From NCBI GenBank assembly GCA_021323755.1, contig JAJPKJ010000068.1, positions 1 to 64,000 of the forward strand: 64,000 nt of DNA, read 5' to 3'. Under the pieces are notes generated by a model, which was given only the letters and a program-made list of their open reading frames with translations, made no database searches and was not told the DNA's origin. Positions 13,494 through 37,700 of this stretch are shown piece after piece. Both the position numbers and the translations under genes were made by a program. Numbering within the stretch: position 1 is the stretch's first letter; the number at the start of each line of letters is the position of its first letter. This DNA comes from Chitinophagales bacterium. Its GTDB lineage: Bacteria; Bacteroidota; Bacteroidia; Chitinophagales; Chitinophagaceae.

Positions 13494-15089
13494 TTATTTT
13501 TCTTCTATCACAGTAAATTCCTGTTCGAGCGTAAGTGAATTTTGATAGACAAGATCAATGAATGCTTTCCCCCATTTTGCATAATAAGGCATAAAGTTTT
13601 CAATCCGCTCCTGCAAATTATTTAAAGGGAATAATGAAGATTTGATTTGATGAATTTGCCGGTGAATATCTTCAAATTTTCTTTTTTCGTTTCGCAGTAA
13701 TTTTTTTTCTAATTCTTTAAGCTGCTTCAAAGCCTTTACTCGCATGGCTTCAACATGTTGCTGCAAGGTAATATCAATATTACCGGCGATCATTTTTAAA
13801 TTAGAATAATAATCTTCTGCAACAGTAATTTCCTTTTGCAGGCTCACTTGGTTCTTCGATTCATTCTTAACTATTTCACTTAATAATGTTTCCGCAGGTT
13901 TAAAAATATCTGTTACCATCAACCCGGCATTCGTAATCTTCTCTTCCCACCTTTTTTCAATTATGAGAAAAGAATTTCGCAATATTAAAATCGGAAATGG
14001 AACTGAATAATGACCAAAGAGATCTTTAAGTTCAAGCCAGTATGCTGTTTCTCCCCCACCCCCGATGAATGCAATATCCGGCAAAATTGTTGACTGAAAT
14101 AATCCTCGCAAGATTACATTGGGGCTAAATCTTTCAGGGGAATTTTTTAGTTCAGCGAGGATCTCATCTTTTGTAAATTGAATTTCGGTATGTCTTACGA
14201 TGAACTTCTCATTTTTAAATTCTATCAATTCCCGGATATTATCTTTTAAGTAAAATAAATTTATTTCCCGCGGGTTTGCCTGCACTTTATAATTTTCAGG
14301 AAATGACCGAATTGTTTTTTCAACGATTGATGACGCAGTCTGGTTTATCAGATCATCTTCAAATACAGGCTTCATCAGGTTTTTTAAGTTTGGATTATCT
14401 GGAATCAAAACAATCAATCCATATTCAGCAAACAATTTGTCGATCAGTTTAAAAGTGGCAGTTTGTATGTCCGGACTTTTGAGATAGCAATCTCGCAACA
14501 AGGCAGCCAATTCCTTTCCATAAGGCTGAACAGAAAATTCCCCTTCGATACGATCAATGATTTTTTCAAGTCCCTTTGTTTTCATTCTTCCCACCGCGCC
14601 ATTTTGTTTTGCTTCCCAGCTTATCTTTTCATTATCGAGATAAATATATCCGAGTTCATCAAGATCAGCATCTTCACTTCCCATATAATAGACAGGCACG
14701 AAATTCTTTTCCGGCAATTCGGCAGACAGGTATTTTGCAATCTTTATTGTGTGCAGGATCTTATAAACAAAAAAAAGTGTCCCGGTAAAAATGGCGGGTT
14801 GATGCGCAGTGGTGATGGTGTAGGTGTTTTCAAGCGAAAGCTTTTCAATATTATCTCTTACAGCAACGGACAATTCCAGGTTGTGATATTGTTTGGTTAA
14901 TTCTTCAACCAAAATCTTTCTGTTCGTTTTAAATTGATCACGGGCATATATAGCCGATTTGACGCCTTCAAGAGAAACAGGATGGGCATAAAATGATCGC
15001 AACGATGCATCATTTTGTAAATAATCAGTTATTATCCGGGAGAAATATCCAGTCTGCTGATATGATAAATTAGTAGCCTTACAATTCAT
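13494..15089 (-). CDS. bshC: Bacillithiol biosynthesis cysteine-adding enzyme
   Basis: 531 residues, usual BshC length. Joins cysteine to GlcN-malate, the last step of bacillithiol synthesis. Strong family stretches: TITTAHQPAIFTGTLFFVYK, the adjacent YYMGSEDADLDELG, and FIGGGGETAYWLELKDLF; a coiled-coil region near residues 420-490 is typical. Start ATG at 15089. It is the last gene of the minus-strand run that starts with the arabinofuranosidase genes, 55 bases after the dehydrogenase stop, and may be read through from it. bshA and bshB are not in the window. Confidence 0.95.
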   Translation of the reverse strand: MNCKATNLSYQQTGYFSRIITDYLQNDASLRSFYAHPVSLEGVKSAIYARDQFKTNRKILVEELTKQYHNLELSVAVRDNIEKLSLENTYTITTAHQPAIFTGTLFFVYKILHTIKIAKYLSAELPEKNFVPVYYMGSEDADLDELGYIYLDNEKISWEAKQNGAVGRMKTKGLEKIIDRIEGEFSVQPYGKELAALLRDCYLKSPDIQTATFKLIDKLFAEYGLIVLIPDNPNLKNLMKPVFEDDLINQTASSIVEKTIRSFPENYKVQANPREINLFYLKDNIRELIEFKNEKFIVRHTEIQFTKDEILAELKNSPERFSPNVILRGLFQSTILPDIAFIGGGGETAYWLELKDLFGHYSVPFPILILRNSFLIIEKRWEEKITNAGLMVTDIFKPAETLLSEIVKNESKNQVSLQKEITVAEDYYSNLKMIAGNIDITLQQHVEAMRVKALKQLKELEKKLLRNEKRKFEDIHRQIHQIKSSLFPLNNLQERIENFMPYYAKWGKAFIDLVYQNSLTLEQEFTVIEEK

Positions 15090-15144: not shown

Positions 15145-16395
15145 TCATCCAAATCGTTCCACATCGAATGCTGAACAATCAATAGTCGTTTTTTGTTTAT
15201 TGATGATTTCTTCCACCAGCTTCCCTGTTGCAGCAGCCAGGGATAATCCCAGCATGGCATGACCACCGGCAAGTGTGAGATTATTGTATTTACTGTGTCT
15301 TCCAATATAGGGCAATCCGTCAGGAGTCAAGGGCCGCAAGCCATTCCATATTTTTTCTTTGGCAGGAAATTGAACGGTGAGGCTTGGATAATAATTTTTA
15401 GCAGCTTTAAAAATCGCTTCTACTCTTTTTATCAAAATCCTATCATTAATGCCGCTGATCTCCATTGTTCCGCCCATGCGAAGATCTTTTCCCATTGGTG
15501 TCATCGCTACGCGATCATCTACCAAAATTGCAGGATGTCGTAAATTCTTCCCGACATTTTCATAAGTTATGCTATAGCCTTTCCCAGCCTGCATTATAAC
15601 GGGAATGCCTAATTGTTTTGTAACAACAGGTAACCATGAACCTGTAGCAATGATCAATTCATTACAATTGAATTTTCCTTTATCAGTAACTATTGCATTA
15701 ATACTGTCTCCATTTTTCTCAAAACCGGTGACCGTGGTATTCAATTGAAGACGGACGCCAGCTTTTTGTAAATGTCCTTTTAATGTTTGCATAAAATCTC
15801 CCGGATGCAGATGGCAATCTATTGGGTACAGAATTCCGCCCCGAACATTCACTTCAACTTCGGATTCCATTTCCTGAATCTGCCCGGCAGTAAAAATTTC
15901 TGTCTCAATCCCCAAAGCTGCTGCCTGCTTTGCCAATTCAATCTCATGCTTTTCAATCGCGGCGCTTTTGTACAACATGAAGCAGCCGACTTCAGCCATG
16001 CGAAAATGATTTCCGAGATCATTCTTTATCTCTGAAGTCAGCTCCCGGCTTAGATGAAGGATATTATTGAGATGCGGAATATTCTTTTGCATCGTTTTTT
16101 CATTGGCGGATTTCCAGAACGTCAATCCCCATCTTACCAAATCTTTATTGAGCCTGGGTTTTATGTAGAACGGACTTGATGAACTCAACATCCAACGCAA
16201 CCCTTTTGCAACAATTCCGGGAGAGGCCAGCGGTGTAAAATGACTGGGAGAAACATAACCTGCATTACCAAATGAAGTGCCTGAAGTAATATCACCACGT
16301 TCTATAACCGTAACATCAAACCCTTTTTTTTGCAAATAATATGCGCAGCACAGACCAATAACTCCCCCACCAATAATACCTACTTGTTTTTCCAT
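15145..16395 (-). CDS. FAD-dependent D-amino-acid dehydrogenase, probable D-hydroxyproline dehydrogenase
   Basis: 416-residue DadA-type flavoenzyme. N-terminal dinucleotide-binding [16 protein letters not shown], then the DAO-family [19 protein letters not shown] segment, and a C-terminal [14 protein letters not shown]...[16 protein letters not shown]-binding motif. DadA-like single-subunit enzymes next to a 4-hydroxyproline epimerase oxidise cis-4-hydroxy-D-proline to pyrroline-4-hydroxy-2-carboxylate (HypO/LhpB role). The epimerase, deaminase and semialdehyde dehydrogenase of that pathway are at 22-27 kb. Its ATG overlaps the 3' end of the glutaminase-family gene by 16 bases, so it is translationally coupled into the GH51-GH127 operon. 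Substrate assignment is by context. Confidence 0.86.
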
Positions 16396-18392
16396 TTCTT
16401 TTCCAATAGTTTAATAAAATATCCGCCTACAACGCTCCTGGCCTGAAAGCCAACCTGCTTGCCATTTGTTGTTTCATGCCAATCGCTCAAAGGCACCCGC
16501 GTTGGCGTTTCTGTAGCATATTTGTAAACGGGGTCAATAATGGCTTCAAAATCATTTTTATTATCGGCCAAAACCGAGGTCCATAATATCCAGTCCGATT
16601 TTGTATATGTCTTTCTGCTATCTAATGGCAATCCGTACTCGTTTTGCTTGGTAAGATAATATTTCACTTCCTTATCATAAACAGATTGCGGAAACAAATT
16701 CAAACCAAGCAATTTATCCCAAACCAGATTATATTTCTGGCTCCACGTATTTTTATCATCAAAGGTTAAAGCATAATGATCGCCGGCATCTGCTAATTGC
16801 ATCCATTTAATGGCTGCGCTTCGCGCGATCTGTTTATATTTTTCGGCAGTTGCATTTTGCCCGCTCAATTCCGCAAGTTGAGCATAGGCGCCGATGCCCA
16901 CTATGGCTTTTATGGAAAGATTGGCGTTACGCGCAAGATGGCCTGCAAAATCATCAGTACACAATTGATTGGCGGGATCGATTCCTTCATTCACTAAAAA
17001 ATCGACCCATTGCGACAATTCTTTCCAATGCAGTTTTGCGTAATCAGTTTTGCCCTCTGCTTTGCAAATTGCAGCCGTAAGGATCATTACATTACCCGCT
17101 TCTTCAACCGGCATATCTTCTCCATAGGTTTGCCCGTTTGCGAGCGGATATGTGCCAAGATCGTGTGCAGGAAAGGGTTTTGTCCATTTACCGCTTTCGG
17201 AATAATAAAAAATTCCATTCAACATCCCTTTCAGAAGATCGGGATTATAAATTAATGTGAGTGGTGCAGAAGGATAGGTTACATCAACCGTCCATATCGA
17301 ACCATTGCTGAAATTTTCTTTTTGGGGAAAAAGAATTTCATTATTTGGCCCACGAACCAATTTATGGGCAGCGAGTGATTGACGATAAGCGAGTACACAA
17401 AGTTTTGCATATTTTTCACCGCCGGCATCAACGGCGTCATCATACAATTGCTTGTCGAATGCATCGCATTTATTTTTTATCAAACGGTAATCTGAAGACG
17501 CACGGTCTAAAACTTCTTCGATCTTGCCACCATCTTTTTTCCACCAGGCTTGCAGATTTTGCCCGAAGTACTGTATCGCATTCAGATCATCATATGCAAG
17601 CAGAACTCTTTTTTCAACAGGTTTCACGCTTATCTGGAAACCAATTGTAGCCGTTAAGGCAAGTTCTTTTGCCCGGATAGGTGCTTCTTCGATTTTTGAC
17701 ACCACCCTATTTGTTTCAAAAGATTGCAAAGCTCCTTGAATATTACTGATTCGCACTGATGTTGAATTATCCTTTGCCGCAGCCAGATAAAGATATCCCC
17801 AATCAATTCTTACATCATCTCCTTTTTTTTGCAGGATCTTTTGAGTCGTTGTTCCGGTTTTTATGATAGAAAGGATTTCGCTTTTCGATGAAGCCGATGT
17901 GACCAATTGATCTTCGCTGTCGCTGGCAGCAGTTGCCGAAGCGCTGAAAAATATCTGAACCTCATGCATCCCCTCGTCATTTGGAGTTACTTTAAAGTTT
18001 ATATAGGTAACCGGAGTTGAAAGTAGATCCAGATTATTCATTAATAAAGGGGAAAGAAAATCTACTTCAAGCTTTACAGGGCCGCATAAAAACTCATAGG
18101 TTGTCTGAGTAGCTGTTATGGTAACATTTTTTTGTGTTGCCGCAATAATATTTTTCGATTCATTAATTGTCCCTAAAAAATTATAAAATTTTCCATCAAC
18201 TTTAATTACACCTTGTAACGGCTGATCTTTTCCAGTCCAGTGTTTGGTTTGACTTTGATTCAGGTTATCCGAGAAAGACCAGATACTGAAGTATGGATCA
18301 TGGGTGATCAATGGATAGGCCGGTGCTTTCAGCATCTGGCAGAATACGGTAAGCGGGGTCGCAATGGCTATGAGTAAAAAAAATTTCTTCAT
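16380..18392 (-). CDS. Glutaminase-A-family secreted protein (DUF4964/DUF5127/DUF4965/DUF1793 type)
   Basis: About 670 residues. I start at ATG 18392 because it gives a canonical signal peptide ([19 protein letters not shown]); an upstream in-frame ATG at 18416 adds eight residues. The first segment, [20 protein letters not shown], and the later [39 protein letters not shown] and [19 protein letters not shown] are typical of the fungal/bacterial glutaminase A family, whose central part is an alpha/alpha six-hairpin barrel. Some members hydrolyse glutamine; many bacterial ones are uncharacterised and the fold is shared with glycosidases. Lying between GH127 and D-hydroxyproline dehydrogenase, it may act on a piece of the same glycoprotein substrate (inference). 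Confidence 0.85.
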
Positions 18393-18474
18393 GGTGCGTT
18401 TTGTTATGGGAATCAAATCGAATTACACGAAATGAACATGATAAATCGGTGCAATTAATTTAAAATTCGCGGTA

Positions 18475-20430
18475 CTAAAAATTTATTTTGATATCTTTTA
18501 TATTTCGTGGAATCCAGACCTGCATATCATCTCCTCCCCGATTTGCCCATGAATAATAAGGAATTGCCGTGATCGTCCTTTTTTGGGTAATTACCGATAA
18601 TCCATCCGTGCCTATTGTTAAAACTGGCAGTTCAGCGGATACAGTTATGACCCCATTCAGCAAAGATTTCTGAAAATCCGTTTTGAAAATTACATTCGAT
18701 GGCAATAAGACATTCCAGGCTTTATCATTGTTGTCAGCGCCTTCAATACAATAGACCAAGGGTCCTCGTTGCAATGCAGCTCTTCCGGCATCCGCCTTCA
18801 CAGAATCATTGGCAATAACTTCTTTCACTTCCATCGGCAAGTTCAATTCAACAACATCCCCTTTTTTCCATTCACGATCGATCACTGCATATCCTTTATC
18901 CATATTAAACGCGACATCTTTTCCATTTACGGTCACTGAAAATTTTTGTGTTTCATTATTTACAAAACGATAAAGGTCGCCCGGAACCGGTTTCCCTTGT
19001 GCCCATCCGGGAATGCGCAGATGCAAGATCATTTTTGTTTTTTTATCCGGTGAAACATTGATCTTCACATTTCCATCCCAAGGATAATTTGTTTTTTGCT
19101 GAATGTTAACGGTTGATTTCCCAATTGGAACATTGGTTTCACTGCCAATAAAAAGATTGACCCAAATATCATTATCCGATTTATTGTAAATATAATTGCC
19201 AAGTGAAGCAACGAGGCGGGCGATATTTGCCGGACAACAGGCTGTGCCAAACCATTCACTTCTTGTGTCCCTGCCAATGGAGGCCAGCGGATTACCATAA
19301 AAAAAACGATCTCCCGTTAATGATAATCCATCAAGTGCAGCATTGTACAAACTTCTTTCCAGCACATCGATATATTTTGCGTCACCGGTTAAAATATTCA
19401 TTCGTTGATTCCACAAAACCATTCCCACGCTTGCACATGTTTCACAGTATGCATCAGCGTTCGGAAGATCATAATCTTTTGAAAACCCTTCATTGTCACC
19501 ACTTGATCCGATACCACCCGTGAAATACATGTTTCTGTCAACCACATCCTCCCAAACCGCCTTCATCGCTTTCATATAACCGGTGTCGCCGTTAGCTGCT
19601 GCCACATCCGCAGCGCCAGTATATAGATACATCGCGCGCACAGCATGACCGGTAATTTTCGTTTGCTCTTTCACCGGTTTTATATCCTGCCAATATGCCG
19701 GCGTGAACCAGCCCATCGCCGTTTGCTGACCGCGTTGTTGCAAATACCAGTCTGCAAGTTTTAAATACCGGTCATTATTTGTAGCATGATATAATTTTAC
19801 CAGCGCCAATTCAATTTCTTCGTGTCCGCTTATCCAATGGCGATTTTTTAAACGAAAAGTTGAATCAATATGATTGGCATAGCGCTCCGCAACCTCGAGC
19901 AATTTTCGTTTTCCCGTTGCATTGTAATAAGCGACTGCAGCTTCCATCAAATGACCTGCATTATAATCTTCGTGATTGGGAATTTGTGTCCACCGTTTAT
20001 TGATGTCTGTCAGGGTATAATAAGTGTTCAAATATCCATCTGGCAATTGTGCTGCCGCAATAATGTCAATCCATTCATCTGCCTTTCGCGCCAAAGCGGT
20101 ATCCGGATTATCTTTAAGGCTATAAGAAATAGCTTCAAGTGCTTTGAAAACATCGCTGTCATCGTAAACCAGTCCTTTAAAACTTCCAGTTTTTCTTTTT
20201 GCAGCATTAATGAAATTCTGGATGCGCGGAGTCGCGATTTCTGTTTGATAGATACAGGCAGGTAATGTTGCGGTTGCAATCTTATCAATTCTTGGTTTCC
20301 AGAAATCATCATTGATTTGAACCTGCGAAAAATTCACAGGCGATATTTTCTGCAAAACATTTTGTGCAATTAGATTGTCGGCTTCCAACAACAGAATGGT
20401 GATAAATGAAGAAAAAATAATTTTTTTCAT
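18475..20430 (-). CDS. GH127 beta-L-arabinofuranosidase
   Basis: 651 residues with a signal peptide (to about IAQ, residue 23). GH127 barrel start: VNFSQVQINDDFWKPRI. Residues equivalent to the characterised Bifidobacterium enzyme HypBA1 are present with matching spacing: Glu314 (acid/base), the zinc ligands Glu330 and Cys332 in YCETC, and Cys398-Cys399 in ACCPANIARL (nucleophile and ligand). HypBA1 releases beta-L-arabinofuranose from beta-1,2-arabinobiose and from Ara-hydroxyproline of plant extensins. The gene lies 6 bases after GH51 and upstream of the glutaminase-family gene. Periplasmic or exported by its signal peptide. Confidence 0.94.
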   Translation of the reverse strand: MKKIIFSSFITILLLEADNLIAQNVLQKISPVNFSQVQINDDFWKPRIDKIATATLPACIYQTEIATPRIQNFINAAKRKTGSFKGLVYDDSDVFKALEAISYSLKDNPDTALARKADEWIDIIAAAQLPDGYLNTYYTLTDINKRWTQIPNHEDYNAGHLMEAAVAYYNATGKRKLLEVAERYANHIDSTFRLKNRHWISGHEEIELALVKLYHATNNDRYLKLADWYLQQRGQQTAMGWFTPAYWQDIKPVKEQTKITGHAVRAMYLYTGAADVAAANGDTGYMKAMKAVWEDVVDRNMYFTGGIGSSGDNEGFSKDYDLPNADAYCETCASVGMVLWNQRMNILTGDAKYIDVLERSLYNAALDGLSLTGDRFFYGNPLASIGRDTRSEWFGTACCPANIARLVASLGNYIYNKSDNDIWVNLFIGSETNVPIGKSTVNIQQKTNYPWDGNVKINVSPDKKTKMILHLRIPGWAQGKPVPGDLYRFVNNETQKFSVTVNGKDVAFNMDKGYAVIDREWKKGDVVELNLPMEVKEVIANDSVKADAGRAALQRGPLVYCIEGADNNDKAWNVLLPSNVIFKTDFQKSLLNGVITVSAELPVLTIGTDGLSVITQKRTITAIPYYSWANRGGDDMQVWIPRNIKDIKINF

Positions 20431-20436
20431 CTTGAA

Positions 20437-21963
20437 TTATGATTTTATTTTTAGCTTGATCATCGTAAATGAATGCGCAGGAAAAACATAATCAAAATCA
20501 TCTCCTTTAATATTGATCTCTTTTTCCACTGCCTTCACTTTTTGTTCGTTCACAGAATTTTCATCCATCAGGTTTTTAGAATTGATCTCGTAAACTTTTG
20601 CTTTATTATCCAGTCTTCCAAATTGATTGGTGATCGCAGTTTGGATTGACTTTTCCTGGTTACGATTAACCACATTGATAATAAGTTCTTGCGTTTTATC
20701 ATTGTAAGAAGAAGAAACGTCGAGATAAGGAATTCCTTTATAATCTTTTTCATCATAGGTATCACACTGAACCAATGCATCGATGGAATATCCCTTACAG
20801 TTAGTGGCAAATAATTGTAAAGGATAATAAATTGTTTGCAGCCACAATTTGTCATTGGTTACCATCATCGGTGCTATAACATTAACGAGCTGTGCCATAT
20901 TCGCCATCTTCACAATATTTGCATGACGAAGAAATGTATTCAGATACATTGCAACAACAAGCACATCCTGCATGTTGTAATGTTCTTCCAATTTTTGTTC
21001 GGTGTATGCGCGGTACCACACATTGTACTCATCAAATGCAATGTAGATGGGTTTTTGCTGTTTGTATTGCAGACGCACCTGATTTATCAGCCCTTCCGTT
21101 ATCTTAATCACATTTTCAACAAATAGTGTTGAACTCATAAACCGGTAATGATCTTTATTGTGATTACCTGCGTAATGGTGCAGTGAAATATAATCAATCA
21201 CGTCATGCAGGTTGGTCAGTACGGTTTTATTCCAATTCATCCAGTCATCGCCATAGTTACTCGAGCCCGAAGCAATTAATTTAATGCTATCATCACTCCA
21301 TTTCATCAGCTTTGCCGCTTCCAGGGCAAACTTGCTGTAATCCTCCGCATTACGATGACCCATCTGCCATTCGCCATCTATTTCATTTCCTAGTCCCCAG
21401 TATTTTACATGATAAGGTTGAGGGTGCCCGTTGGCTGCGCGCAGATCTGAATAATAGAATCCCGTAGGAGCATTACAGTATTCAACCCAATTGCGAGCTT
21501 CATCCCATGTCCCGGTTCCGAGATTAACACATACATATGGTTCAACATTCGCTGCTGTAGCGAATTTCATGAATTCATCTGTTCCAACAATATTGGGTTC
21601 GGTGTCACCCCATGCAAGATCTTTTCGTTTTGGACGATTTTGTTTTGGCCCAATTCCGTCCATCCAGTGATAACCGGAAGAAAAATTTCCCCCCGGCCAA
21701 CGAACAATGCTTACCCCCAGGTTTTTTGTCGCGTCAATCACATCTTTTCTAAATCCATCGGCATTTGCCTGTGAAGAGCTCGGATCATAAATGCCGCCAT
21801 AAATACATCTTCCAAGATGCTCTGTAAAATTTCCGTAAAGCAGATTATTGATCTCACCGATCTTCCGCTCAATATCTATTTTGATTCTAGCTTTTAGATC
21901 TTGCGAAAATGTTGATAAAGAAAAAGAAAAAAGAAGAAGGGTGATCAATGATTTTTTTCTCAT
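20437..21963 (-). CDS. GH51 alpha-L-arabinofuranosidase
   Basis: 508 residues with a signal peptide (residues 1-20, STFSQD). GH51 landmarks: NFTEHLGRCIYGGIYDPSS, VSIVRWPGGNFSSGYHW, acid/base Glu194 in WGLGNEID, and nucleophile Glu312 in AFDEYNVWYR. Removes terminal alpha-L-arabinofuranose from arabinan, arabinoxylan or glycoprotein arabino-oligosaccharides. First gene of the tight run GH51, GH127, glutaminase family, D-amino-acid dehydrogenase. The 174 bases in front of it, down to the epimerase stop, are the likely promoter region. Confidence 0.95.
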   Translation of the reverse strand: MRKKSLITLLLFSFSLSTFSQDLKARIKIDIERKIGEINNLLYGNFTEHLGRCIYGGIYDPSSSQANADGFRKDVIDATKNLGVSIVRWPGGNFSSGYHWMDGIGPKQNRPKRKDLAWGDTEPNIVGTDEFMKFATAANVEPYVCVNLGTGTWDEARNWVEYCNAPTGFYYSDLRAANGHPQPYHVKYWGLGNEIDGEWQMGHRNAEDYSKFALEAAKLMKWSDDSIKLIASGSSNYGDDWMNWNKTVLTNLHDVIDYISLHHYAGNHNKDHYRFMSSTLFVENVIKITEGLINQVRLQYKQQKPIYIAFDEYNVWYRAYTEQKLEEHYNMQDVLVVAMYLNTFLRHANIVKMANMAQLVNVIAPMMVTNDKLWLQTIYYPLQLFATNCKGYSIDALVQCDTYDEKDYKGIPYLDVSSSYNDKTQELIINVVNRNQEKSIQTAITNQFGRLDNKAKVYEINSKNLMDENSVNEQKVKAVEKEINIKGDDFDYVFPAHSFTMIKLKIKS

Positions 21964-22137
21964 GGCAATAGTAGAGTTTATTTTGTGTTACCTGCTTCCG
22001 TTTTTCAAACCCTCATGGTTTGGTCGCATACTGGCATATTGGTAATACATTGAGCGACTGCCAGCGGAAAAAAACGAAAAATCGGCAATCTGCTAATGTA
22101 AGAATAAATGTTATTTTGACAATAATAAATCAAATCA

Positions 22138-23199
22138 TCACAACACCTGAAACCCATAGGCATAAGGGTCATCACCTGGGTCAATATTTATATAATTATA
22201 CCCATAAATCCTTGCCCAACCTTCAATACTCGGTCTGATGGCGGGTTTTCCAGCAACTGTTGTTTCTTCTTCAATTCTTCCAATAAATTTTGAACCGATT
22301 ATGCTTTCATGAATGAATTCATCTCCGCTCTTCAATTTTCCTTTTGCATACCATTGCGCCATTCTTGCCGAAGTTCCTGTTCCGCAAGGTGAACGGTCTA
22401 TGGCTTTATCTCCATAAAAAACAGCGTTGCGCGCGGTAGCATTTTCATCGATCACTTTTCCTGTCCACAAAATATGCGAGCATCCGTTTATGGTTTCATC
22501 ATCGGGATGGACAAAGTTGTATTTTTCGTTTATCGCTTTTCGCAAGGCTCGTGCCCAACTGATCAATTTATCCGCCGAATAATTTTCTAACCCAGAAAAA
22601 TTTTCCTGCACATCGACTATAGCATAAAAATTTCCCCCGTAAGAAACATCCACATTCAACGGTCCTAATTCAGGGCAATCCACTTCAATATTTTCTGCTG
22701 CAAGAAATGCAGGCACATTAGTGAGTCTTACCCATTTTACTTTCTTACCTTCCTGTCCATATTCTATCAATACCAATCCTGCAGGTGCTTCCATGCGAAC
22801 AATCCCGGGCGTTTTTGGAATTATCAATCCTTCTTCAATGCCAATGGTGATCGTTCCGATCGTCCCATGTCCGCACATGGGCAAGCATCCGCTCGTTTCA
22901 ATAAATAAAACAGCGATATCATTTTGCTCGTCGTGCGGAGGATATAATATACTTCCGCTCATCATATCATGACCGCGAGGTTCGAACATCAATCCCTTTC
23001 GTATCCAATCAAATTCTTTTAAGAAATGTTGTCTTTTCTCGCTCATATTATTCCCCTGTAATGCGGGACCGCCGGAGGCTACAAGTCGCACTGGATTTCC
23101 ACAAGTGTGGGCATCAATGCAAAAAAAAGAGTTGCCGGTCTTTTTTTCCATCCTACTTATTATACTGCCAATTTCTTTATTTACAGGACCTGTTGACAT
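22138..23199 (-). CDS. 4-Hydroxyproline epimerase (proline racemase family)
   Basis: Up to 353 residues. Both catalytic cysteines of the epimerase/racemase group are present: Cys109 in MCGHGTIG and Cys272 in DRSPCGTGTSARMA. This rules out trans-3-hydroxyproline dehydratases, which replace one of them. FFCIDAHTCGNPVRLV is the conserved N-terminus; the internal ATG at 23151 (residue 17) gives a more usual length and is an alternative start. Converts trans-4-hydroxy-L-proline to cis-4-hydroxy-D-proline, the entry step to the D-amino-acid dehydrogenase encoded 6 kb downstream. Proline racemase activity is the main alternative; neighbours favour hydroxyproline. Confidence 0.9.
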   Translation of the reverse strand: MSTGPVNKEIGSIISRMEKKTGNSFFCIDAHTCGNPVRLVASGGPALQGNNMSEKRQHFLKEFDWIRKGLMFEPRGHDMMSGSILYPPHDEQNDIAVLFIETSGCLPMCGHGTIGTITIGIEEGLIIPKTPGIVRMEAPAGLVLIEYGQEGKKVKWVRLTNVPAFLAAENIEVDCPELGPLNVDVSYGGNFYAIVDVQENFSGLENYSADKLISWARALRKAINEKYNFVHPDDETINGCSHILWTGKVIDENATARNAVFYGDKAIDRSPCGTGTSARMAQWYAKGKLKSGDEFIHESIIGSKFIGRIEEETTVAGKPAIRPSIEGWARIYGYNYINIDPGDDPYAYGFQVL

Positions 23200-23202
23200 A
23201 AT

Positions 23203-23235
23203 ATTGGCAAGTTATTAAAGGAAATTTTAACTTTG
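23203..23235 (+). promoter_or_regulatory. Bacteroidota-type promoter for the sterol-desaturase-family gene
   Basis: TTG at 23204-23206 and TAACTTTG at 23228-23235 are separated by 21 bases, matching the -33 TTTG / -7 TAnnTTTG arrangement. The -7 box ends 16 bases before the ATG at 23252. The opposite strand here must also carry the epimerase promoter; only a weak TAACTTG-like box was seen for it. Confidence 0.55.
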
Positions 23236-23251
23236 TAAAGATTGTTTAAGT

Positions 23252-24523
23252 ATGGAAGCTTACGGTAAAATCTTATTGATCGCGATGCCTGCTTTTTTAG
23301 CGCTGGTATTATTTGAAAAATGGTGGGGATGGCGCAAAGGCAAAGATACGGTGCGCAATATGGATATGATATCCAGTTTAAGTTCCGGAATTACCAATGT
23401 TACAAAAGATGTGCTGGGCTTGGGTTTGACGATACTCTCTTATGGGTGGTTGGTTAAACATATTGCTATCGTTCATATCCAGTCAAGCATTTTTGTTTAT
23501 GTCATTGCATTTATCTCGTTAGACTTTGCCGGCTATTGGGTCCATCGTATTGCCCATGAGTATAATTTTTTCTGGAATAATCATATCGTGCATCACAGCA
23601 GCGAGGAATTTAATCTTGCTTGTGCGCTTCGTCAAAGCATTTCGGTATTTGTAAAAATATTTGCGTTTCTATTGTTGCCTGCTGCATTATTAGGGGTGCC
23701 GGAAAAAGTAATTGTAATTATTGCACCATTGCATTTGTTTGCACAATTCTGGTATCATACGCAGCATATCAATAAGATGGGATTTTTGGAAAAGATAATT
23801 GTTACCCCATCACATCATCGTGTACACCACGCCATCAACCCCGAATACCTTGATAGAAATTACGGGCAAATATTTATTTTCTGGGATAAATTTTTTGGAA
23901 CTTATCAACAAGAATTACCTGAAGTAAGGCCTGTGTATGGCATCACCCGGCCATCGCAAACATGGAACCCGATAAAGATCAATTTTCAGCATATGTGGTT
24001 ATTGATAAAAGATGCATGGCGAACAAAAAATTGGAAAGACAAATTTCGGATTTGGATGATGCCAACCGGCTGGCGGCCAGAAGATGTTGCTGAGAAATAT
24101 CCCGTATATAAGATTGAAAATGTATATGACTTTAAAAAATATTCTCCGAAGGCTGATCATGCACTGACGACCTGGAGTTGGATACAGATCTCGATCATGT
24201 TGCTCATTATCAGTTATCTTTTTGGCAATATAGCAAAGATCGGCAGCCCGCATATTTTTTATTACGGAGTTTTCATTTTTTTGAACGTTTACAGTTTTAC
24301 TGAATTGATGGATAGAAATCCAAACGCGATATTTTGGGAATTGCTAAAAAATATTTTTGGACTTGGAATGATTATAAAAAATGGGGACTGGTTTGGGATA
24401 AGCTCGATCTCCCCAATGCTCAATTATGCCTTTATCACCTATTTTATTTTGTCGACCATTATTTCTGCATGGTTTTCGTTTTCTTTTCGAGGCGAAAACC
24501 AGCGGTTAATTGCAAGCAGCTAA
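23252..24523 (+). CDS. Sterol desaturase / fatty acid hydroxylase family membrane protein
   Basis: 423 residues, several membrane spans (about residues 5-20, 55-95, 130-165, 310-330 and C-terminal ones). The di-iron histidine boxes are readable: HRIAH (98-102), HIVHH (111-115) and HHRVHH (188-193). Such enzymes hydroxylate or desaturate lipids, including fatty acids, carotenoids and sphingolipids. The C-terminal half (after about 300) is an extra hydrophobic domain found in a bacterial subgroup. It is the only plus-strand gene inside the hydroxyproline block and is probably functionally separate. Substrate not predictable. Confidence 0.88.
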   Translation: MEAYGKILLIAMPAFLALVLFEKWWGWRKGKDTVRNMDMISSLSSGITNVTKDVLGLGLTILSYGWLVKHIAIVHIQSSIFVYVIAFISLDFAGYWVHRIAHEYNFFWNNHIVHHSSEEFNLACALRQSISVFVKIFAFLLLPAALLGVPEKVIVIIAPLHLFAQFWYHTQHINKMGFLEKIIVTPSHHRVHHAINPEYLDRNYGQIFIFWDKFFGTYQQELPEVRPVYGITRPSQTWNPIKINFQHMWLLIKDAWRTKNWKDKFRIWMMPTGWRPEDVAEKYPVYKIENVYDFKKYSPKADHALTTWSWIQISIMLLIISYLFGNIAKIGSPHIFYYGVFIFLNVYSFTELMDRNPNAIFWELLKNIFGLGMIIKNGDWFGISSISPMLNYAFITYFILSTIISAWFSFSFRGENQRLIASS

Positions 24524-24548
24524 CGGACAGTTCGCCAATTTGAAAACT

Positions 24549-26033
24549 TTAGACCTTCTCTTTGGTCAATTCATTATTAATCGTTCTCCAGATATTGAGT
24601 GGATTACTATTTTTTAATTCATCCGGCAATAAATTATCAGTCCAGTTCTGAAAAGCAATTGGTCTTGCAAAACGTTTAATACCATCTGCGCCAACGGAAG
24701 TATAACGGCTATCCGTAGTCGAAGGATATGGTCCGCCATGCTGCATGCTCAAACACACTTCAACACCTGTCGGAACGCCATTTAAAATAAACCGGCCACA
24801 AATATTCTTTACCGCTTCAACCAATGGTTCATTTTGTAATATATCGTTCTCGGTTGCCATTATGGTTGAGGTAAGCTGACCTTCCAGGTTTTTTGCCACT
24901 TCAATCATTTCCTCAATATTTTTACAACGAATAATGATTGAATAAGGACCGAAGACTTCCTGGTGCAATACAGGGTTTTTAAAGAAAGCTGCTGCAGGAG
25001 CTGATGCGATAGTTGGTATTCCCTGATTTTCTTTGGGCTCTATTTCAGATACCGCCAGGGTCTCCACATTTTCCTGCTTGAGCGCGTTTATTCTTTTTTC
25101 AACAAATGCTTTAGCAATTCCAGGATGCAACATTGTGCCTGGGGCAATATTTCTTATTTCTGATGATAATAATGAAATGAATTTTTCGAGATCTTCATTT
25201 TCAAGGCCGATAATGATCCCGGGATTAGTACAAAATTGACCAACGCTTAATGTAATCGATGATACATACATTTTTGCAATCTCGCCTGCAGATTGTTTTA
25301 GTTTTTCCGGCAACAAAAAAACCGGATTGATGCTTCCCATTTCAGAAAAGACAGGGATCGGTTCTTTGCGTTGATTGGCCCAATCGAATAGCTGTTTCCC
25401 ACCGGCAAAAGACCCGGTGAATCCAACTGCCTTGGTACATGCATGCATGACCAGATTCTTCCCTACTTCAAACCCACTACCATGAATATGCGTAAAAATT
25501 CCTGCAGGCATCTTACATTTTTCTGCCGCACTTAAAATCGCCTGTGCTGCCAATTCAGAAGTCTGGGCATGCGCCGGATGCGCCTTTACAATAACCGGGC
25601 AGCCCGCCGCTAATGCACAAGCGGTGTCCCCACCGGCGGTAGAATACGCAAATGGAAAATTACTTGCTCCGAACACAACAACTGGCCCGATCGGTACCAG
25701 CATTTTTCGTATATCAGGTTTTGGCGGACTCTTGGTCGGGATTGCGGTATCAATTCTTGCTTCAAGCCAACTGCCCTGCTCACCTGCATCGGCATAGCTA
25801 TTTAATTGAAAAATTGTTCTCGTCAATTCACCTTGTAATCTCGCTTCGGGTAAATTCGTTTCTGACATCGCCGTCGCAACCAACTTCTTTGCATTATCAT
25901 TTAGTTCAGTCGCAATTGCTTTCATAAATGACGATCTCTGTTTCAAAGAATATTTTCGATATTCATGAAATGCTTGCCAGGATTTCTTTAGCGAGATATC
26001 TATTTCTGCTGTAGTGGCGTCTTGAAAAGCCAT
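24549..26033 (-). CDS. Aldehyde dehydrogenase, probable alpha-ketoglutarate semialdehyde dehydrogenase
   Basis: 494 residues of the NAD(P)-dependent aldehyde dehydrogenase family. VVVFGASNFPFAYSTAGGDTA is the nucleotide-binding region typical of KGSA dehydrogenases. Glu231 (FSEMGSINP) and nucleophile Cys268 (SVGQFCTNPG) are the catalytic pair. In hydroxyproline catabolism the enzyme oxidises alpha-ketoglutarate semialdehyde to alpha-ketoglutarate, the last step. It lies 23 bases after the DHDPS-family gene that makes its substrate, so the two form a two-gene operon. The alternative role, in pentose or glucarate pathways, uses the same reaction. Confidence 0.9.
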   Translation of the reverse strand: MAFQDATTAEIDISLKKSWQAFHEYRKYSLKQRSSFMKAIATELNDNAKKLVATAMSETNLPEARLQGELTRTIFQLNSYADAGEQGSWLEARIDTAIPTKSPPKPDIRKMLVPIGPVVVFGASNFPFAYSTAGGDTACALAAGCPVIVKAHPAHAQTSELAAQAILSAAEKCKMPAGIFTHIHGSGFEVGKNLVMHACTKAVGFTGSFAGGKQLFDWANQRKEPIPVFSEMGSINPVFLLPEKLKQSAGEIAKMYVSSITLSVGQFCTNPGIIIGLENEDLEKFISLLSSEIRNIAPGTMLHPGIAKAFVEKRINALKQENVETLAVSEIEPKENQGIPTIASAPAAAFFKNPVLHQEVFGPYSIIIRCKNIEEMIEVAKNLEGQLTSTIMATENDILQNEPLVEAVKNICGRFILNGVPTGVEVCLSMQHGGPYPSTTDSRYTSVGADGIKRFARPIAFQNWTDNLLPDELKNSNPLNIWRTINNELTKEKV

Positions 26034-26056
26034 AAAATATTTTTAAAATGTTCAAC

Positions 26057-26974
26057 TCAGATCTTTATTGAATGATAATCTGGTAAGGTTGGTCTGGAAT
26101 CAATTCCATCTTTAATGATTTTTTCAACTCTTTTTCTTTCGTCCCCTGCTAAAATTAATCTGGGGGCCCTCACCCATTCAGTTCCTAATCCTGCATATGC
26201 TTCGGCAAGTTTAATGTATTGAACCAATTTCGGATGAATATCCAATTCAAGTAAGGGCATGAACCAACGATAGATTTTTGCAGCCTCCTCAATTCGCCCC
26301 GCTTTCGTCAATGTATAAATGGCAACAGTTTCATTTGGAAATGCGTTTACCAATCCAGCGATCCATCCGTCTGCGCCCATTAATAATTCTTCCATAGCAA
26401 TCGTATCTACTCCGCATAAGATCTTCAGCCGGCTGCCAAAACGATTTCTTAACCTTGTCACATTCGAGACGTCACGTGTTGATTCTTTGACAGCCTGAAT
26501 ATTTTCACATTCCATCAATTCCTCAAACATATCCACAGTCACTTCAATTTTATAATCAACCGGGTTATTATAAATCAAAATTGGCAATGATGTTGACGCC
26601 GCGACTGTTTTAAAAAAAATGACGGTTTCTCTGTCATCACTTTTGTAGCGCATTGGCGGCAGCAACATGATTCCTTTTGCGCCCCAAATCTTTGCAAGTT
26701 CTGCCTGGCGAATTGCTTCTCTTGTAGAGCCTTCTGCAATATTTAATATTACCGGAATTTTCCCGGCTGTTACTTCTGCAGATAATTTTACTAATCTTTC
26801 CTTTTCTTCAGTCGATATCGTGCTCGCTTCACCCAACGAACCGCCAATAATCAAGCCATTAATGCCGGCATTCATCTGTGCCAGTAAATTTTTTTTGAAT
26901 GATTGCAGATCAAGTGAATCGTCCTTATTGAATTTTGTGGTGAGTGCAGGAATTACGCCGCTCCAGTCTATCAT
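26057..26974 (-). CDS. DHDPS/NAL-family lyase, probable pyrroline-4-hydroxy-2-carboxylate deaminase
   Basis: 305-residue class I aldolase barrel of the dihydrodipicolinate synthase family. Schiff-base Lys163 (QAVKESTRDVS) and the catalytic Tyr135 (LIYNNPVDY) are present, with GGSLGEASTIS as the carboxylate-binding motif. Members paired with 4-hydroxyproline epimerase deaminate and dehydrate delta1-pyrroline-4-hydroxy-2-carboxylate to alpha-ketoglutarate semialdehyde (HypD/LhpC role). It is not a lysine-pathway DapA by context: it is coupled to the semialdehyde dehydrogenase gene immediately downstream. Confidence 0.87.
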   Translation of the reverse strand: MIDWSGVIPALTTKFNKDDSLDLQSFKKNLLAQMNAGINGLIIGGSLGEASTISTEEKERLVKLSAEVTAGKIPVILNIAEGSTREAIRQAELAKIWGAKGIMLLPPMRYKSDDRETVIFFKTVAASTSLPILIYNNPVDYKIEVTVDMFEELMECENIQAVKESTRDVSNVTRLRNRFGSRLKILCGVDTIAMEELLMGADGWIAGLVNAFPNETVAIYTLTKAGRIEEAAKIYRWFMPLLELDIHPKLVQYIKLAEAYAGLGTEWVRAPRLILAGDERKRVEKIIKDGIDSRPTLPDYHSIKI

Positions 26975-27516: not shown

Positions 27517-28041
27517 TTAATGCCTGATAATTGCTCTGCCATACCTGATCAAAATTACTGTTCCCTTCGCAGTGGCAGATTTATTTGATAAAAGATCCTT
27601 GTACTCGATCATCCATACATATGTGCCAGGAGATTGCGGTTTGCCTCCGAAAGTACCATCCCATCCTTCGTTGAGATTAGTAGTTGAGAATATGAGTTCA
27701 CCCCAACGGTTGTACACCGAAAATTTCGTTACTTCCTCTGCCATCGAATAAGGAACGCGAAAAACATCATTCTCACCATCTGCATTTGGCGTAAATGCAT
27801 TCGGCATTGCCAGCGGTTCATATACAATAACTGTTACCTTACCATTTGCTTCACAACTACCATTGCTGGTTACTTTTAACTGATAAATAGTTGAGCTGAC
27901 CAGATCTGAATCAGGATTTTTTTCAGTTGGATCATTCGCATTATTTCCGTTATACCAAGTTATTTTTGCCAGAACACCTGAAGAAGATACATATAAAATA
28001 TCCTTGCCGAGGCAAACACTATCATTTTTTTTAAGGTTGAA
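27517..28041 (-). pseudogene. 5'-truncated T9SS type B (CHU_C) secreted protein
   Basis: The frame is open from 28041 to the stop at 27517 but contains no ATG, GTG or TTG before the late methionine of AMPNAFTPNADGENDVFRV. The first part is the end of an Ig/PKD-like domain (KITWYNGNN, then STIYQLKVTSNGSC). The last 95 residues are an intact gliding-motility-type C-terminal domain (FSVYNRWGELIFSTTN, GTYVWMIEYKD). An in-frame TAA sits directly upstream at 28042-28044. This is therefore the 3' remnant of a large surface protein that has lost its signal peptide and most domains. The 119 bases between it and the 2-hydroxyacid dehydrogenase stop hold nothing recognisable. Confidence 0.75.
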
Positions 28042-34750: not shown

Positions 34751-37700
34751 ATGAAAATTTTTTACCTCATCTCCCTGCTTTGTTTTTTTTCAATTGCTGA
34801 ATCTGTTGCCCAAACAAAACCAAAACCTGTTCGTTTTAAGAACGGAGACTTTTACGGAAACCTGAATATTCAAAAAGGAAAATTCAATACCAATAGTTTA
34901 CAAAAAGTTCATTTTCGCAAAAAATTTTACGCACTGGTCCAGTTCGAAAAGATTCCTGATTCGTCACAAAAAAAAGAACTCGCTTCAAAGGGAATTATGT
35001 TGTTTGATTATCTGCCCCACAATGCATTCATGGCGGAGATCAGCGATAATGCTTCAATTCCTGAATTAAAAAGATTTGGAGTAAATGGTGTATATGAAGT
35101 GAACTCGCAGTATAAAATTTCAAACAAACTATCCCAGCAAATTTCATTGCATAAAAACAGCACTGAAGATCTTATCGCTGTTTGTTTTTATGGTTCAATA
35201 TCGAAGGATGAAGTGATAAAACAAGTTGAAGGATTGGGTGCGCAGATCGTTCATACAAAAATTCAACCTCAAAAAACAATATTTATAAATGCTTCCGAAG
35301 AGGTCGTCAACAAAATCGCAGCGCTCCCCTTTGTGACTTATATCAGTGAGCAATACCTGAAAGATATTCCGCTGAACTATAACAATCATGCGGCTTATAG
35401 CATTGATGCGCTTAATGCGACCGGAGGCAGGAATTTACGTGGGGAAAATGTTACTGTGGGTGTAGGCGATGACGCCGATCCTTCCGGACATATTGATTTT
35501 ACAGGAAGATTATTTGTCAGAACTCCCGCCCCGCAAAACTTGCATGGAACGCATACAACCGGAACCACAGCCGGGGGCGGACTCTTAAATCCAATGTATG
35601 CAGGTATGGCGCCTAGGGCAACAATTGTTAGTCAATATTACAGCGACATTTTAGTGAACGCGCCAACTTATATAAATGATTATGGAATGATCGTCACCAA
35701 TAATTCTTATTATTCGGGGCTATCTGGTTGTCCTGGCGAAGGGGAATATGATCCGCTCAGCAATTATGTTGACTGGCAGCTCACGCTGTACGATTCAATG
35801 CTTCATGTATTCGCTTCGGGCAATGACGGAAGCTCGAATTGCACTCCTTACACCGGCTCTTTTGCAACAATAAAATCCGGGTTTCAATGTGGCAAGAATA
35901 TATTGACGGTTGGTGCTGATAACAGCACTACGCATGTCGTAGCCAGTTTTTCAAGCAGCGGACCTGTTAACGATGGAAGAATAAAACCAGAATTGGTTGC
36001 CGGCGGTGTTGGTGTTATATCAACATATCCGAATAACGTGTATGGCTCAGATCAGGGCACAAGTATGTCAGCGCCCACGGTGACCGGAACGCTCGCATTG
36101 TTGTACCAGCGTTACAGGCAGCTTCATGGTGGTCTAAACCCTTCTGGTGCTCTGATAAAAGCAGTAACCTGCAATGGCGCAGATGATGAAGGAAATCCGG
36201 GTCCTGATTTCAGTTATGGATTTGGAAGGTTGAACGGAAGAAATGCTGTCGAGATGATCGAGAAGAATCAATTCTTTAGCGGAACGATGAGCAATGGAGG
36301 TTCGGTAAATTACACCATTCATGGTGTTCCTGCAGGAACAAATCAAATAAAAATCATGTTGTATTGGGCAGATGCGCCTGCAGCACCCTATGCGACAACC
36401 TCTCTGGTCAATGATCTCGATCTTACCGTAATTTCTCCCGATGCAACGGTTCATCATCCATTAATATTGGATCCAAGTCCAGCAAACGTCAATAATAATG
36501 CGGTTGAAGGAATTGATAACACAAATAATATTGAGCAGGTAGTAATCTATAACCCTCCTGCCGGGGACTTCACCATCAACGTTAATGGAACCAGCGTTCC
36601 ATCTTCTTCGCAGGATTATGTTGTGGTTTATCAGATCATCAATCCTTCTGTCACCGTTGAATATCCTTTTGGCAGCGAGACCTGGGTTCCCGGGCAAACA
36701 GAAAATATCAGGTGGAGTGCATTCGGAGGAAGCGGAAACAGTTTTACACTTGAATATTCAACTGATAACGGCGGATCATGGACAACGATCAATAATAACA
36801 TTCCTGACGGAACAAATTTGTATACATGGACTGTTCCCAATGTTGCAACCAATAATGCATTGATACGGGTAACAAGAAATAATGTTGGTTATAGCGATGT
36901 TAGCGATTATGATTTCACCATACTAGGACAACCATCGCTAACGGTAACAGATTCTTGCCAGGGCTATGCAAAACTCTTATGGAACACGATTCCTTCAGCT
37001 TCGCAGTATGAAGTCATGCAATTGATCGGCGATAGTATGCAAACCATCGCCACAACAACAGACACCAGTTTTTTGGTTCAGAAATTAAATAGAGACAGCA
37101 GTTATTGGTTCACCGTTCGCGCAAATTATAACGGTTCGCCCGGAAGACGCGCAGTTGCTGTTAATATCATTCCGACGGGGAATAATACCTGCACCCTAAA
37201 TAATGATTTTACGGTTGATTCATTAATTGCTCCAACAACCGGGAGAATGTTTACTTCAACGCAACTCGGTAACGCGGTGACCATTAGTGCAGAATTAAAA
37301 AATCTGGGGGGTCTTGCATCCAGCGGTAGCATTCCCATTTCATACCAGGTCAATAATGGCAGCATTGTTACAGAAAACATTTCAACGTCTATTCCGGCAC
37401 ACACCACGAACACCTATTCTTTTTCAACGCCATTTGATTTTTCTGCAACAGGAACTTACAACGTAAAAGTTTGGGTCAGTTATCTGAGCGATACCCTCCA
37501 CGGAAATGATACATTAACTACCATTATTAAAAATTTACAAAATGATCCGCTTACATTAAATCCATCTTTTACTGAAGGATTTGAAAGTGCTGCGGCGGCA
37601 ACATACACTTCTCCAACCTTGGGATTTACCGGATTGGATCGCTGCGATTTTTTGGCAAATAATTCAAATGGAAGAGTGAGAACCTTTATCAATACCGGGT

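Follow-up and report, generated by a model that had tools for sequence, protein, structure and literature searches.

In the excerpts of the literature on which we draw here and below, the collagen-utilisation cluster of Colwellia is described as holding an M9 collagenase, peptidases, uptake functions and the hydroxyproline (Hyp) pathway in one cluster (PMC7883544). The HypAA/HypBA2/HypBA1 system of Bifidobacterium longum and Xanthomonas euvesicatoria provides alpha- and beta-L-arabinofuranosidases for Hyp-arabinosides (PMC6085000, PMC10850190); the Xanthomonas genes of this type adjoin a prolyl oligopeptidase gene that is broken, and XeHypBA1 belongs to GH146. On extensin, Ser bears alpha-galactose and Hyp bears arabinofuranoses in both beta and alpha linkage (PMC5371791). 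In the Latescibacteria GH127 has been linked to extensin, and the excerpt mentions no hydroxyproline operon (PMC4454575). A word search of the available text on the genome neighbourhoods of proline racemases gave no mention of glycosidases, arabinose, plant or collagen (PMC4113996), and we found no description in the open-access PMC literature of a locus like the one considered here. This locus lies at 15145-26974 of a 64,000-nt stretch (the window) of contig JAJPKJ010000068.1 of Chitinophagales bacterium, assembly GCA_021323755.1. It holds genes for GH51 and GH127 arabinofuranosidase-family proteins together with those for a 4-hydroxyproline epimerase, a DadA/DAO-type dehydrogenase, a DHDPS-family protein and an aldehyde dehydrogenase (ALDH).

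We think it likely that the locus uses plant hydroxyproline-rich glycoproteins as a source of sugar and amino acid together. A preliminary description, made from the sequence of the window, had proposed that one locus here joins the removal of sugar to the use of hydroxyproline, an interpretation that is partly supported overall. The family sample comprised 195 Chitinophagaceae genomes, 92 of which have an epimerase match. Adding genome G137, where a contig end truncates the epimerase, gave 93 epimerase loci, each from a different genome; the stretches were of at most 20 kb and many were cut by contig ends, so that counts from them are lower bounds. Glycosidases were scored as a set that includes the GtaA family and DUF5695, with cluster representatives identified by Pfam. 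At least one cluster of this set is present in 44/93 loci, and GH127, GH146 or GH51 in 40/93. The dehydrogenase and epimerase genes are adjacent in 38 loci, separated by glycosidase genes in 25 and by other genes in 11, and 19 loci have no same-strand dehydrogenase within the stretch. The 25 glycosidase-interrupted loci span 16 genera, and in 24 of them the intervening genes include GH127, GH146 or GH51, the exception being L207, with a TIM-barrel gene only. It is in this embedding of glycosidase genes between dehydrogenase and epimerase that the proposed joining stands.

The simplest picture is of a hydroxyproline core with an inserted cassette of variable content. By Pfam the set includes GH146-like proteins (PF07944 plus DUF6805), GH27, GH3, GH95, a second GH51 type and DUF5695, with a GH2/GH5-like TIM barrel (weak) and a melibiase-like protein (34 bits versus 27) as less secure members. 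In the window's own genus (L052, genome G127) the order DHDPS-ALDH-melibiase-like-epimerase-GH51-GH127-dehydrogenase-BshC forms one same-strand run with gaps of -49 to 165 bp; the epimerase match there contains a TGA, and a 333-aa open reading frame (ORF) is present. L032 has the order DHDPS-ALDH-epimerase-GH127-GalM-TIM barrel-dehydrogenase, again on one strand, the gaps ranging from -4 to 62 bp. In L047 (G194) GH127 and GH146 are next to epimerase and DHDPS genes of the other strand, and L178 brings together SusC, SusD, a GH51, GH27, DUF5695 and an amino-acid permease with hydroxyproline genes. In G035 the epimerase match is in two pieces on two contigs and the genome has only a 43% identical GH127, on a third. 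Peptidase-type clusters (S9, M24 and DUF885, the last of which we take to be of this type) are present in 19/93 loci. Though none was seen in the window, 32/93 loci have an AraC-type regulator.

Linkage was also examined from the GH127 side. In the same family we listed the 150 strongest GH127-type matches and classed them by identity to the window protein: class A (at least 57% identical; 49 matches in 48 genomes), class B (42-49%, with an open frame of 750 aa or longer; 35), class C (42-49%, shorter frame; 35) and class D (below 42%; 31). All counts by class are among the matches listed. The preliminary description had suggested checking whether the gene set stays together in related genomes, and for the close homologues it often does: among epimerase-bearing genomes, the GH127 gene is no more than 12 kb away from the epimerase in 21/35 for class A, 10/32 for class B and 0/48 for classes C and D. 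Random placement would give about 0.2 for class A against the 21/35 seen; related genomes are not independent, so that computed probabilities overstate the case. Loci were examined for 47 of the 49 class A matches; the remaining two are the gene of the window itself and, in G177, a second copy that is short. None of these 47 loci holds AraA or AraB, compared with AraA and/or AraB in 8/13 control loci from classes B and C. Two of the control loci, L082 and L085, hold two and three hydroxyproline genes respectively, in agreement with the class B linkage. In G177 (L043, contig C2) two close GH127 copies are adjacent, the second short with an internal stop, and the stretch has none of the four hydroxyproline genes.

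On a GH127 tree (FastTree, 133 rows) the linked label needs 17 changes, at least 13 of them forced by well-supported branches; contig-cut stretches may be mislabelled as unlinked, which inflates this count. Shuffled labels need 34 changes on average, and none of 500 shuffles was as low as 17. The label is thus clustered on the tree yet requires repeated gains or losses, and a single origin of linkage is unsupported.

Is the association then a matter of chance, or of two gene sets that merely share an ecology? The view that unrelated genes lie together by chance in a single genome could draw on the fact that the DHDPS-ALDH unit of the window is not contiguous with the rest, but it is contradicted by the comparative counts (21/35 for class A; 25/93 loci in 16 genera) and we regard it as extremely improbable. 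Under shared ecology, the hydroxyproline genes would serve free Hyp or collagen peptides and the glycosidases arabinan or other arabinosides, both substrates arriving with plant matter. Both gene sets are found apart in many genomes, a collagen version of the hydroxyproline cluster is known from Colwellia, and the organism's own genome has one M9 match, on contig C19, which is below threshold (19.9 bits, cut-off 26). However, the glycosidase genes lie within the hydroxyproline gene order in those 25 loci, and GH127s of the arabinose-operon type (classes C and D) are never near the epimerase. No M9 collagenase scored above the cut-off in the 195 family genomes, other collagenase types not having been searched, and a reading built on M9 collagenase was rejected on this count. 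We consider shared ecology as the whole explanation unlikely.

Several observations weigh against the reading of the locus as one for the joint use of sugar and amino acid. Within the family, 49/93 epimerase loci show no glycosidase of the set. A strict tie between the two functions is opposed by 13/48 class A genomes that have no epimerase match (G137, with its contig-cut epimerase in L070, is one of these). In the window the DHDPS-ALDH pair is a separate unit, split from the epimerase by a plus-strand gene, and neither the dehydrogenase, the deaminase nor the ALDH reaches an equivalog cut-off for its proposed step. Outside the family the linkage is thinly spread. A scan of named genomes with the GH127 profile gave 480 loci, of which the best 80, including family genomes already counted, were considered. 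The epimerase is present in just 16 of these 80, which rules out a universal tie of GH127 to hydroxyproline genes, and L103, L107, L108 and L133 pair a close GH127 with GH51, GH146 and araB/D/A instead. In other families of the phylum there are 55 epimerase-bearing genomes, 28 with a PF07944 gene, and 5/55 have this gene at a distance of 12 kb or less from the epimerase (about 0.4 expected); the glycosidase queries matched none of the 15 outside-family epimerase loci that were read, positions being compared for all 55.

Any of the four hydroxyproline genes is present in 20 of the same best 80 named loci. Two Rufibacter loci (L100, L109) have GH127 adjoining AraC, DHDPS, ALDH, epimerase and dehydrogenase, none of which is found in the Spirosoma and Larkinella loci. 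The closest named locus, L092 (82%), has the order GH127-GtaA-TIM barrel-dehydrogenase-BshC and starts at a contig end. In G213 (C5:79597-80502) and G389 (C6:183473-184378), ORFs of 1023-1030 aa with a partial PF07944 domain lie about 7 kb from the epimerase and represent a different architecture of GH127-like protein.

The GH127 protein bears on what the substrate might be. As had been noted from the sequence, it keeps the catalytic set of HypBA1: Glu314, Glu330, Cys332, Cys398 and Cys399 align with E322, E338, C340, C417 and C418 of that enzyme. These five residues (the Zn-Cys3-Glu site, nucleophile and acid/base) are invariant across 21 locus-linked homologues. Among solved structures it scores best with 6ex6 (557 bits), which we take to be BT3674, and 4qjy (518), followed by HypBA1 (367) and 5mqo (290); since the first two score above HypBA1, a HypBA1-like specificity is not assured. 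Against the aceric acid hydrolase profile NF049879, another GH127 activity, it scores 453 bits, under the cut-off of 950. The GH51 protein has 1pz3 as its best solved chain and scores 507 bits against the ArfA equivalog, under the cut-off of 625. In the organism's own genome (4.08 Mb, 99.8% complete) the sole matches to PF07944, PF06964 and PF16335 are all in this locus.

We favour extensin as the substrate, with arabinogalactan protein (AGP) as the main rival. Were AGP the main target, GH127 and GH51 would trim the terminal arabinofuranoses of type II arabinogalactan and Hyp would come from the AGP backbone. The closeness of the window protein to 6ex6 speaks for this possibility, as do the GH3 and GH95 genes in some relatives' loci. 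BT3674, a Bacteroides GH127, reportedly works with exo-galactanases on larch arabinogalactan (PMC10850190). On the other side, no galactanase family (e.g. GH43_24, GH30) is among the identified clusters, unclustered genes not having been annotated, and the alpha-galactosidase-type genes of relatives' loci fit extensin better than AGP because extensin has Ser-linked galactose. Such genes occur in 7/93 loci, all of which also have arabinofuranosidase-family genes, against 40/93 overall (p 0.002, related loci being non-independent). We rate AGP as a doubtful main target, if the most serious competitor to extensin.

How secure are the hydroxyproline enzymes? The epimerase scores above the cut-off of its NCBIfam equivalog (NF010578) and has both catalytic Cys motifs of the proline racemase family, MCGHG and SPCGTGTS, in keeping with the preliminary description; among the epimerase-cluster ORFs, some of which are cut, CGHG is present in 92/93 and CGTGTSA in 88/93. 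The same description had claimed the full pathway through alpha-ketoglutarate semialdehyde (KGSA) dehydrogenase. The families are indeed present, but the ALDH falls far short of the KGSA/2,5-dioxovalerate dehydrogenase equivalogs (about 100 bits against cut-offs of 750-770). Its closest solved relatives are of the 1eyy/3v4c type (1eyy and 3v4c being its best solved chains), and the KGSA dehydrogenase name comes from context. The dehydrogenase scores 277 bits for the D-amino acid dehydrogenase subfamily, under the cut-off of 383, and its proposed action on cis-4-hydroxy-D-proline is likewise a role suggested by genomic context. The DHDPS-family protein matches PF00701 and reaches no NCBIfam cut-off. 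We assign these three roles from context because the clusters of dehydrogenase, DHDPS and ALDH recur in 76, 73 and 67 of the 93 epimerase loci.

The locus also has a GtaA-family gene, between those for GH127 and the dehydrogenase, which was absent from the gene list of the preliminary description. Its product has no solved relative by sequence. An AlphaFold2 model built from 13 sequences (pLDDT 79, pTM 0.85) is closest to GH116 (TM 0.71-0.75, most top entries), then to the exo-beta-D-arabinanase ExoMA2 and GH52. A probe for glycosidases labelled a fungal member of the family, and a bacterial homologue showed weak beta-galactosidase activity but none as a glutaminase (PMC9668830). A glycosidase is thus more likely than a glutaminase, and the family, called glutaminase A, is probably misnamed. 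Near its N-terminus the window protein is missing about 130 residues that longer relatives (L063, L048) have as a block; the protein of L092 is also short. DUF5695 proteins of 911-925 aa are encoded in three genera (L178:14525-17260, L180:12082-14859, L229:14335-17112), where they adjoin epimerase, permease and GH51 or GH146 genes, and DUF5695 is a candidate new glycosidase family. More tentatively, and at somewhat less than even odds, the Chitinophagaceae, along with a few other Bacteroidota, may have a recurring and hitherto undescribed class of loci that fully digest plant hydroxyproline-rich glycoproteins, sugar and amino acid alike, with the GtaA family (DUF4964/DUF5127/GtaA) and DUF5695 as unrecognised glycosidases for extensin-type glycans. 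If so, this yields concrete predictions for both families.

The features of the locus are collected in the table below. Pfam and NCBIfam profile matches confirm that the genes named in the preliminary description are present, all on the minus strand save one.

Table. Genes of the locus and its syntenic neighbours, with positions in the window and profile support.
Feature	Position	Strand	Support
DHDPS-family protein, proposed deaminase	26057..26974	-	PF00701 208 bits; cluster in 73/93 epimerase loci
Aldehyde dehydrogenase, proposed KGSA dehydrogenase	24549..26033	-	PF00171 150 bits; cluster in 67/93 epimerase loci
Fatty-acid-hydroxylase family, syntenic neighbour	23252..24523	+	PF04116 99 bits; in 27/93 epimerase loci
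4-hydroxyproline epimerase	22138..23199	-	PF05544 428 bits; NCBIfam NF010578 597 bits (cut-off 376)
GH51 alpha-L-arabinofuranosidase family, signal-peptide-like start	20437..21963	-	PF06964 140 bits, PF22848 24 bits
GH127 beta-L-arabinofuranosidase family, signal-peptide-like start	18475..20430	-	PF07944 344 bits, plus PF20736, PF20737
GtaA-family protein (DUF4964, DUF5127, GtaA six-hairpin), candidate glycosidase	16380..18392	-	PF16335 478 bits
DadA/DAO-type dehydrogenase, proposed D-hydroxyproline dehydrogenase	15145..16395	-	PF01266 219 bits; cluster in 76/93 epimerase loci
BshC (bacillithiol), syntenic neighbour	13494..15089	-	TIGR03998 416 bits (cut-off 266); in 27/93 epimerase loci

In the order of minus-strand transcription, DHDPS and ALDH come first, then, beyond the plus-strand gene, the epimerase, GH51, GH127, GtaA, dehydrogenase and BshC. 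The epimerase and GH51 genes are 174 bp apart, GH51 and GH127 6 bp. The dehydrogenase ATG lies inside the 3' end of the GtaA gene with an overlap of 16 bp, from which translational coupling of the two may reasonably be proposed; the mechanical ORF start of the GtaA gene is a TTG at 18416. BshC is on the same strand, 55 bp downstream of the dehydrogenase. The Bacteroidota -7 motif was uninformative: the window has 61 matches where 79 are expected, and the 174-bp gap has none. Read by eye, GH51, GH127 and GtaA have signal-peptide-like starts, and the other locus enzymes do not. The fatty-acid-hydroxylase-family gene, divergent from the epimerase, is probably outside the hydroxyproline pathway.

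Elsewhere in the window, about 8 kb from the locus, 34751-40051 (+) encodes a protein of 1766 aa that belongs to the subtilase family (S8) and carries a Por secretion C-terminal tail, a candidate secreted protease by its sequence. At 27520-28038 (-), 173 codons are open in one frame with no full-length ORF listed; we take its translation to resemble a C-terminal sorting tail of the kind found on secreted proteins of Bacteroidota, and the stretch is likely a gene remnant.

For plant hydroxyproline-rich glycoproteins as substrate we propose the following mechanism, in which co-transcription and regulation of the genes together are presumed. Exported GH51 would remove the alpha-arabinofuranose caps, and exported GH127 would take away the beta-arabinofuranoses until hydroxyproline is reached; a further sugar would probably be cleaved off by the GtaA-family protein, also exported. 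Hydroxyproline would then be freed by peptidases encoded elsewhere and imported. The epimerase would convert it to cis-4-hydroxy-D-proline, which the DadA-type enzyme would oxidise; the DHDPS-family enzyme would deaminate the product to alpha-ketoglutarate semialdehyde, and the ALDH would yield alpha-ketoglutarate. The arabinose would enter the araB-araD-araA route encoded elsewhere. In the organism's own genome araB, araD and araA are grouped with a symporter on another contig, C7, and freed arabinose should therefore be usable. If this is correct, it identifies genes with which Bacteroidota recycle glycoproteins of the extensin type, a component of plant walls that is cross-linked and contains nitrogen, and the process becomes testable in cultured relatives. 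It also offers a genomic marker, a hydroxyproline epimerase with GH127, GH146 or GH51 within one gene run.

How does this locus compare with the systems already described? Like a Bacteroidota polysaccharide utilisation locus, it has co-located glycosidases of predicted export, and in some relatives SusC/SusD and an AraC regulator are present as well. Unlike such a locus, the window has no SusC/SusD pair, as had been observed earlier, yet 8/93 relatives' loci carry SusC and/or SusD; in the organism's own genome the seven PF14322 matches over the cut-off are on other contigs, other SusD families not having been searched. It differs too in that the gene set extends to catabolism of the amino acid that bears the glycan. 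With the HypAA/HypBA2/HypBA1 system it shares alpha- and beta-L-arabinofuranosidase families, but it has GH51 in place of GH43, and GH121 was not seen in the window. The gain stated for that system is arabinose, hydroxyproline catabolism being unmentioned in the available text (PMC6085000). Like the standard bacterial trans-4-hydroxy-L-proline cluster, the locus has epimerase, dehydrogenase, deaminase and semialdehyde dehydrogenase families, but with a glycosidase cassette inside. The Colwellia cluster, as far as the excerpt describes it, similarly joins polymer cleavage to genes for epimerase, D-hydroxyproline dehydrogenase, deaminase and KGSA dehydrogenase. Unlike it, the window has arabinofuranosidases and a GtaA-family protein, which point to a plant glycoprotein, and the family genomes have no M9 collagenase above the cut-off. 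By this analogy, the locus is best read as a counterpart of the Colwellia collagen cluster, not itself one.

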